Origin: Candidatus Eisenbacteria bacterium
GTDB taxonomy: Bacteria; Eisenbacteria; RBG-16-71-46; CAIMUX01; VGJL01
Assembly (NCBI GenBank): GCA_016867495.1
Contig: VGJL01000009.1
Span: 1-43,993 of the forward strand
DNA length: 43,993 nt
Direction of reading: 5' to 3'
In this document: piece by piece, positions 8,600 through 10,725 of the stretch
How the letters are laid out: each line of letters opens with the position of its first letter
Position numbering within the stretch: position 1 is the stretch's first letter
Made by a program: the position numbers and the translations under genes
Notes under the pieces: generated by a model
Database searches by the model: none
The model's input: the letters and a program-made list of their open reading frames with translations, nothing else
Told to the model about the DNA's origin: nothing

Positions 8600-9799
8600 C
8601 TAGGAGAGGGAGGCGCCCTTGGCGGACCCTTCCGGCTTCGCCAGCAGGAAGTCGATCTCCGCCTCGAACATCTTCTCGTTGCCCGGCGCGAAGCCAAGAT
8701 GGCGGAAGACGATCTTGCCCTGTCTGTCGATGAGCAGGTTGGTCGGCACTCCCTTCAACCCGAAGAGGGAGCGCATCTGCCTCTGGTCGTCGACCAGGAC
8801 CGGGAAAGTGGCCGCGTGCTCGGCCACGAACTTCTCTGCCAGCGCCGGACGATTGGTGGTCTCGACCGAGAGAATGACGAAGTCCTCGCCTCCCCGCCTC
8901 GCGTAGATCTCCTGCAGGTGTGGATACTCCACACGGCAGGCTCCTCAAGTGGGATGCCAGAAGTTGAGAAGGACGACCCGGCCGCGAAAGTCCTTGAGAG
9001 AGACCTGTTCCGCGGAAGCGAGAGTAGGCAGCGTGAAGTCGGGAGCCTCGGTCGCCCCCTCGGCCCGCCTGCGGGAGATCTCGGCCTCGATCTCCGCCAG
9101 CGAACCGCCGCCATCGCTCACGATTCGGGCCAGATTCCCGCGCAGGAGCGGACTCTCCATGTGGGAGAGGAGATCCATGTAGATCGGCTTCGCCTTCTCA
9201 TCCATCCCCGCGGCGTCGTAGATGAGGGCCATGTGCTCGTCGATCTCATCGTTTCCCGGTCCGAGAATCGCGTAGGCCTCCTCCATGCGGGCCGCCGCGG
9301 TCGCGTGGTCCCCGTTCTTGTGGCGGGCCCATGCCTCGCTGTCGAGGCAGGAAGCGAGCATCTGCTCATCCTCGCCGGCGCGGGCCTTCGCGACCGCCTT
9401 CTCCAGGACCCTCACGGCCAGATCGAGGTGCTCGCCCGCTTCCGCCAGATCCCAGCCGACCGCGTTGTAGGGCCCCGGCGAAGCATGATCGGTCTTCAGG
9501 AAGTCCCGCAGTGCCCCGGGGACCGAGGCCGGATCCTCTGTTCGCGCAAGCTCGATGAGATCGACGTACGCCTCGCCGGCCTCCCGGCTAGAAGGGCGCT
9601 CCTTCACGAACTTGCGCAGGGCGGCCAGGCGGGCCGCGCCGTCCTCGAGGATCTCGATCTGGGCATAGGCGGCGCTGTCGGCGCCTTCCTCGGCCTCGGG
9701 ACTCGACTTCCGATTCCCCGTGCATCCTGCCGTCCAGAGGAGCGGCAGGGAGAGGCAAACGAGAGCGAGCCATCTTCGATCGGTGGGGCTGAATCGCAT
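8600..9799 (-). CDS. Selenocysteine-containing TlpA-like thioredoxin lipoprotein (UxxC)
   Basis: Envelope thiol-disulfide oxidoreductase read through an in-frame TGA at 8947-8945. The 399-residue product starts at the ATG at 9799 (GGAG 6 nt upstream) with a lipoprotein signal ending in WTAGC (Cys26). A helical, TPR-like region spans about 45-230, and a redoxin domain about 250-399. The domain runs APDFTLPTL, DFRGRVVLLNFWHPT, then the TGA (residue 285), then GACRVEYPHLQ. Thioredoxins have NFWATWCGPCR here, so TGA falls exactly on the first Cys of CxxC, giving U285-G-A-C288. The fold continues without gap past the TGA, including the cis-Pro loop GVPTNLLID and RQGKIVFRHLG. A SECIS hairpin follows directly. 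Reading it as two broken genes would require the break to land on the catalytic residue by chance. Selenocysteine machinery genes are not in this window. Confidence 0.85.
8911..8940 (-). promoter_or_regulatory. Bacterial SECIS element
   Basis: On the minus strand, four nt after the TGA, CCTGC (8940-8936) pairs with GCAGG (8915-8911). After a C versus CT internal loop, GTGTGGA (8934-8928) pairs perfectly with TCCACAC (8924-8918), closing on a 3-nt apical loop GTA. The loop begins 17 nt after the TGA and its first base is G. Both agree with the known bacterial SECIS rule (stem-loop immediately 3' of UGA, apical loop about 16-37 nt away, G in the first two loop positions) recognised by SelB. Confidence 0.85.
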
Positions 9800-9897
9800 G
9801 GAAATCTCCTTGTCCGCCGGGGTGAGTCGGCGCGGATCGATGTCCGAGTATAGGAGATCGGGTGGCGGCGCACAGCAGCGGGTGTGAACGAAGAAGA

Positions 9898-10033: not shown

Positions 10034-10411
10034 CTAGTTCCTGCGAAGGCGCTCCTGTTTCTCCTGACATTTCAGGCAGAAGCGCGCCTGCGGCAAGACC
10101 TCGAGCCTACGGCGGTCGATCTGCATGCCGCACCTCTCGCAGGCGCCGTAGACGCCTTCATCGATCCTCTGGATCGCTTCCTCTATTTCGTGGATGGTCC
10201 GACCTTGGGCGTCGGCAAGCAGGAAGGCGGACTCCCTGTCGGCTTCCTCCGTGGCGCAGTCGGCCATGTGGTTCGCGAAGGCGCCTCCGTCCTCTATGTA
10301 GCGCTGGCCCTGCTCCGCGACCGACTTCTTGAGCTGACCGAGGAGATGCCCCCTCTGGCCCAGCTCATCGAGAAGCCGGCGCTTGTAGCGCATGGTGGTC
10401 CTTGCGTCCAT
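10034..10411 (-). CDS. DksA/TraR-type C4 zinc-finger protein
   Basis: 125-residue protein of the DksA/TraR family, whose members bind the RNA polymerase secondary channel and adjust transcription with ppGpp. The start at 10411 follows GGAGGAG. It has an N-terminal helical coiled-coil (about 5-85) and the C4 zinc finger CERCGMQIDRRRLEVLP...CLKC (C-x2-C-x17-C-x2-C) near the C-terminus, with the family-typical EGVYGACERCG lead-in. It is shorter than E. coli DksA (151 residues), and I cannot confirm the acidic coiled-coil tip needed for DksA activity. A general DksA/TraR regulator is the safe call. Confidence 0.85.
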   Translation of the reverse strand: MDARTTMRYKRRLLDELGQRGHLLGQLKKSVAEQGQRYIEDGGAFANHMADCATEEADRESAFLLADAQGRTIHEIEEAIQRIDEGVYGACERCGMQIDRRRLEVLPQARFCLKCQEKQERLRRN

Positions 10412-10725
10412 TGCTCCTCCTCCGAGTCCGAATGGGCAAATCCCTAGTCCCATGTGCGTTTCACCGGTCTTGGGCCCCCCCAAAGCGCCCGGCTGACGGA
10501 CTCGAATCGTGATATGATCTCTGGAATCGTTCTAAAGTTCCAGCATTTTCTTTGGCGGGCGTCGATTCGGGAGCGAGGGGGTCATCCCGAGCGTTGCCAG
10601 ATCCCCGGCAGGGGACCGGGATTGTGCAAGGGTGGTCCCGCGGCGTAAGGTCCATGGGGGAATAGATCCAGATTCGGCTCGGGGTTACAGGCCTGGGGCT
10701 GGACGAGCGATGGTGGAGGCAGGGG

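Follow-up and report, generated by a model that had tools for sequence, protein, structure and literature searches.

An in-frame TGA in a membrane-tethered redoxin gene of Candidatus Eisenbacteria is very probably a selenocysteine codon

The question raised by this locus is whether a TGA codon interrupting a long reading frame on the minus strand of a Candidatus Eisenbacteria contig terminates translation or is read as selenocysteine (Sec). The window is the whole 43,993 nt stretch of DNA that was analysed (contig VGJL01000009.1 in assembly GCA_016867495.1). With the TGA counted as Sec, the sequence and its orthologues delimit a complete CDS of 399 residues (8600..9799, minus strand) that runs from an ATG at 9799 to a TAG at 8602–8600 and is preceded, close 5' of the ATG, by a Shine-Dalgarno-like AAGGAGA, which includes AAGGAG (9805..9811, minus strand). 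The single interrupting TGA (8945..8947, minus strand) is codon 285. Standard gene finders would cut this gene in two and lose the full-length redox enzyme, and the GTG-started fragment at 8932 that the original prediction anticipated does exist (8932–8600, 110 aa) and is the expected call of an annotator, though the product ending at the TGA has 284 residues rather than the 285 given there. As the window is GC-rich and includes 28 stops with more than 200 open codons before them and more than 100 after, frames of this kind are frequent, and the openness of the frame after the TGA is therefore no evidence on its own; homology is the evidence. What stands above chance is that the TGA substitutes for the catalytic Cys within an unbroken homologous domain, and that six genomes retain it. 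No second plausible site was found by eye among the TGA codons in the window that have a Cys within 3 residues.

The TGA lies within a ResA/TlpA-type redoxin domain (residues 250–390; 8630..9052, minus strand) identified from Pfam, PDB sequence matches and the predicted fold. In the segment NFWHPT-U-GACR it occupies the position of the first catalytic Cys of the CxxC motif, so that residue 285 is the first of a U-G-A-C motif, as had been predicted and as the frame, the Pfam match and the alignment with paralogues all bear out. The Pfam AhpC-TSA (9.6e-21, the best match) and Redoxin (2e-19) matches run unbroken across the TGA over residues 250–376, with both domains (PF08534/PF00578) well above the Pfam gathering scores (74.4 bits against 26, 70.3 bits against 26.6). 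The part past the TGA comprises 114 residues (286–399), the length originally given. The closest PDB relatives by sequence are DsbE/ResA/TlpA proteins, including 3gl3. An AlphaFold2 model based on the six-row orthologue alignment, built with Cys substituting for Sec, has a mean pLDDT of 86.8 and shows a series of helix pairs leading into a thioredoxin fold; the modelled redoxin domain superposes on 3gl3 and ResA with a TM of about 0.9. The helices, in pairs and mostly with pLDDT >90, make up a TPR-like domain (residues 34–248; 9056..9700, minus strand) that also matches TIGR02917 in five of the six orthologues and, weakly, Pfam TPR_12/TPR_19. At the N-terminus, a signal peptide of the lipoprotein type with a lipobox ending in TAG-C26 (9722..9799, minus strand) was read by eye. 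The predicted lipoprotein signal holds for the window protein and for the orthologues in families f1 and f2, which share GC at that column, but not for those in family f9, which have a Cys-less N-terminal hydrophobic segment. Membrane tethering is therefore conserved while the type of anchor differs, a lipobox in f1/f2 and a plain hydrophobic segment in f9.

The gene was found in three of the 11 genomes of the order, namely that containing the window (G000), one from the same family (G005) and one from another family (G001), and a profile built from these three rows retrieved three further orthologues, all from family f9, from 47 genomes of the phylum. The resulting set of six, the window's own included, spans three families, and where the close relatives have named records, these are Candidatus Eisenbacteria. 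The remaining five proteins share 29–48 % identity with that from the window, and the part beyond the TGA shares 54 % identity with its G005 counterpart. The active-site column is TGA in all six and Cys in none, whereas all of the other redoxins compared, including 27 CxxC paralogues from the phylum, have Cys at this column. The flanks are conserved, and the decay around the TGA that the original prediction named as a sign against it was not seen. Cys288, the resolving cysteine of the UxxC motif (8936..8938, minus strand), and Pro352 of the cis-Pro loop (GVPT, of the form G-x-P-T; 8744..8746, minus strand) are invariant in the six. A tree of the redoxin domains places the six Sec orthologues to one side of a branch (support 94/86), away from the 27 Cys-type paralogues, a topology that fits a single origin of the Sec form without proving it. 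No Cys-bearing orthologue was found among the genomes of the phylum searched; a scan of further contigs used two peptide patterns, one of which contains Cys and is blind to TGA, with other phyla thinly surveyed.

A hairpin lies directly downstream of the TGA (8911..8940, minus strand), with the form CCTGC/GTGTGGA-GTA-TCCACAC/GCAGG, in which CCTGC/GCAGG is the lower stem, GTGTGGA/TCCACAC the upper stem and GTA (8927–8925) the apical loop. The apical loop lies 17 nt past the TGA, and the hairpin is within the 37 nt counted from it. Published rules for bacterial SECIS (bSECIS) elements specify a loop of 3–9 nt, a stem of 4–16 bp, a G in the first two loop positions, a distance of 16–37 nt from the UGA and an MFE of −7.5 or lower (PMC13188914), and the hairpin, with a 3 nt loop starting GU, a 7 bp upper stem, 17 nt spacing and an MFE of −19 kcal/mol for the 49 nt stretch that includes it, agrees with every one of them, as originally predicted. 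When the seven pairs of the upper stem were examined in the six genes, all 42 cells were paired and three pairs had changed on both sides; the covariation score was reached by no shuffle and slid versions scored far lower. In f1/f2 the lower stem is preserved, in f9 it is different, and the energy of the hairpin at L074 is unremarkable on its own (z −0.63). Because the six sequences are related and fall into two main groups, they represent few events, and the covariation is support and not by itself proof. Over the 12 codons past the TGA, the same codon is used for the same residue in 50 of 62 cases, compared with 301/630, 44/73 and 142/278 elsewhere; these figures are pooled over pairs, and taken pair by pair the excess is significant in only two of six.

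Genes for Sec synthesis and insertion, the absence of which from the host genome had been put forward as an argument against a selenoprotein, are present in G000, with selA (473 bits), selB (342 bits) and selD (274 bits) each above the curated cut-off. SelB is full length (639 aa), and selD (L024/L027; G000:C36:4-648, minus strand) is itself a TGA gene (MAACAG-U-ASK), truncated where the contig ends. A tRNA-Sec gene was not found in the G000 assembly, either with the Rfam model or with the DNA of the G005 gene as query; all sites matching the model fell below the cut-off, and those loci put through ARAGORN were other tRNAs. Of 39 genomes searched, 33 had a model score above the cut-off and six, G000 among them, did not; 33 is an upper figure that includes at least one marginal pass, that of G030, on the model score only (47.9 bits vs 47). 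ARAGORN confirmed the tRNA-SeC of G005, G002 and G001, where the gene is flanked by glmS/ridA on one side and lepA on the other; most other relatives have a LepA-like start close to tRNA-Sec. The lepA gene is nearly universal in bacteria, and none above the cut-off was found in G000. The completeness of this assembly of 373 contigs is given as 100 %, yet both lepA and tRNA-Sec are absent from it. Because the two adjoin in the relatives read, one missing piece would explain both absences, and most likely the tRNA-Sec/lepA locus fell in a gap in the assembly.

The missing tRNA-Sec would nonetheless be expected if the TGA were a real stop, belonging to a pseudogene or arising from an assembly error for TGC or TGT, with the C-terminal part a relic, and the abundance of open frames past stops in this GC-rich window points the same way. 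That the same TGA is found in six separately assembled genomes and that the downstream part is conserved, including its active-site Cys and cis-Pro, make this reading highly improbable, and a pseudogene or sequencing error was rejected on the strength of the six orthologues with a conserved TGA and a conserved downstream protein. Read-through of the UGA as Trp, Cys or a near-cognate residue, without selenium, would also accord with an assembly lacking tRNA-Sec, but against it stand the position of the TGA in the column of the catalytic Cys, the presence of sel genes in the genome and the covarying bSECIS that follows the TGA, and we give it hardly any weight. That UGA285 is a Sec insertion site is very well supported by the comparative sequence data, and we put the probability of this reading at roughly 95 %.

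Translation would then proceed through decoding of UGA285 as Sec by SelB and Sec-tRNA, directed by the hairpin directly 3', and the product would be a periplasm-facing, membrane-tethered thiol-disulfide oxidoreductase. The Sec285 selenolate would attack a disulfide, or a comparable oxidised group, of a substrate, Cys288 would resolve the mixed selenosulfide, and the oxidised protein would probably be re-reduced by the DsbD of this genome, which encodes a full-length DsbD-like protein with a C-terminal thioredoxin domain, a plausible electron donor. The direction of the reaction and the link to DsbD are inferred from the ResA/TlpA family, and by this analogy a role in extracytoplasmic disulfide reduction is somewhat favoured. 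The N-terminal TPR-like domain may hold a partner or substrate close to the active site, though this docking role is suggested only tentatively. Sec often serves in peroxidases, and AhpC-TSA is the best Pfam match, as would suit a selenoprotein with peroxidase-like activity of the peroxiredoxin type instead. However, the motif is a thioredoxin-like UxxC rather than the TxxU of Sec-peroxiredoxins (PMC1088965) and the nearest structures are ResA/DsbE/TlpA proteins, which leave peroxidase activity improbable.

Gene neighbourhoods gave no clue to the substrate, as families f1, f2 and f9 share no neighbours and none is conserved outside close relatives. In the window, the neighbours encode a DksA/TraR-type zinc-finger protein, a methyltransferase and an MFS transporter; the first, a C4 zinc-finger protein, is directly upstream (window 10034–10483, minus strand) and is found in the same place in G005. 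A further probable selenoprotein was seen in a relative (L078, near 2090 in G011:C70); it is thioredoxin-like, with a TGA replacing Cys (FYTDW-U-VWC-KRLEKETF) that is followed by the self-complementary stretch GGCTGGAGAA...TTCTCCAGCC.

UxxC selenoproteins of related types are already known, including thiol-disulfide isomerase-like proteins (cd02966), the Redoxin family (PF08534) and a Prx-like thiol:disulfide oxidoreductase (PF00578) (PMC13188914 Table 1; PMC1088965), and some of the redoxin/TlpA-like ones date from the Sargasso Sea survey (PMC1088965). Like the protein described here, they combine a redoxin/TlpA-like domain with Sec as the first residue of UxxC and a bSECIS close downstream; the N-terminal TPR-like domain and membrane anchor set the present protein apart from the published members, which were compared by their descriptions. 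The ResA-like selenoprotein family NF041054 (WAxxUGC_long) shares the ResA-like domain (2.9e-19), but the match scores 69.6 bits where the cut-off is 300, aligns only 140 residues, and the motif of that family is, by its name, UGC and not UxxC. NF053656, the redoxin_TUGYCR (seleno)protein, shares the motif T-U-G-x-C-R, here T-U-G-A-C-R, and the window protein scores 22.2 bits against its curated cut-off of 100; the score for NF002854 (ResA), 83.5 bits, is also below the curated cut-off of 170. Hence, the window protein adds a member that falls below the curated selenoprotein-family cut-offs. The Cys forms of known structure (ResA/TlpA/DsbE; PDB 3gl3, 1st9 and 1jfu) share the fold and the cis-Pro loop (TM 0.65–0.93 on the domain) but have Cys in place of Sec and no TPR-like domain. 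The fusion of a lipoprotein signal, a helical TPR-like region and a redoxin domain had been thought unusual, and this was overstated. UxxC TlpA/redoxin selenoproteins appear in reviews, and a protein from the same class (L077 in G020) has a signal, a TPR-like region and a redoxin domain but is a Cys protein (GSWCGPC) that falls among the Cys paralogues in the tree. As L077 has the same architecture, combining TPR and redoxin parts is not a peculiarity of selenoproteins. Our literature search found no paper on TPR/lipoprotein selenoproteins and none naming both Eisenbacteria and selenoproteins.

More speculatively, and at fairly long odds, the six may represent a clade of tethered redoxins that uses Sec exclusively, no Cys orthologue having been found among the genomes searched, and whose TPR-like domain would bring one particular oxidised partner to the selenium active site, making the protein a dedicated extracytoplasmic Sec reductase for a reaction for which Cys is insufficient. 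While the understanding of how selenoproteins work is left unchanged, a well supported selenoprotein subfamily is added to the Eisenbacteria phylum, and the set from six genomes, with its covarying SECIS, is usable for training predictors.
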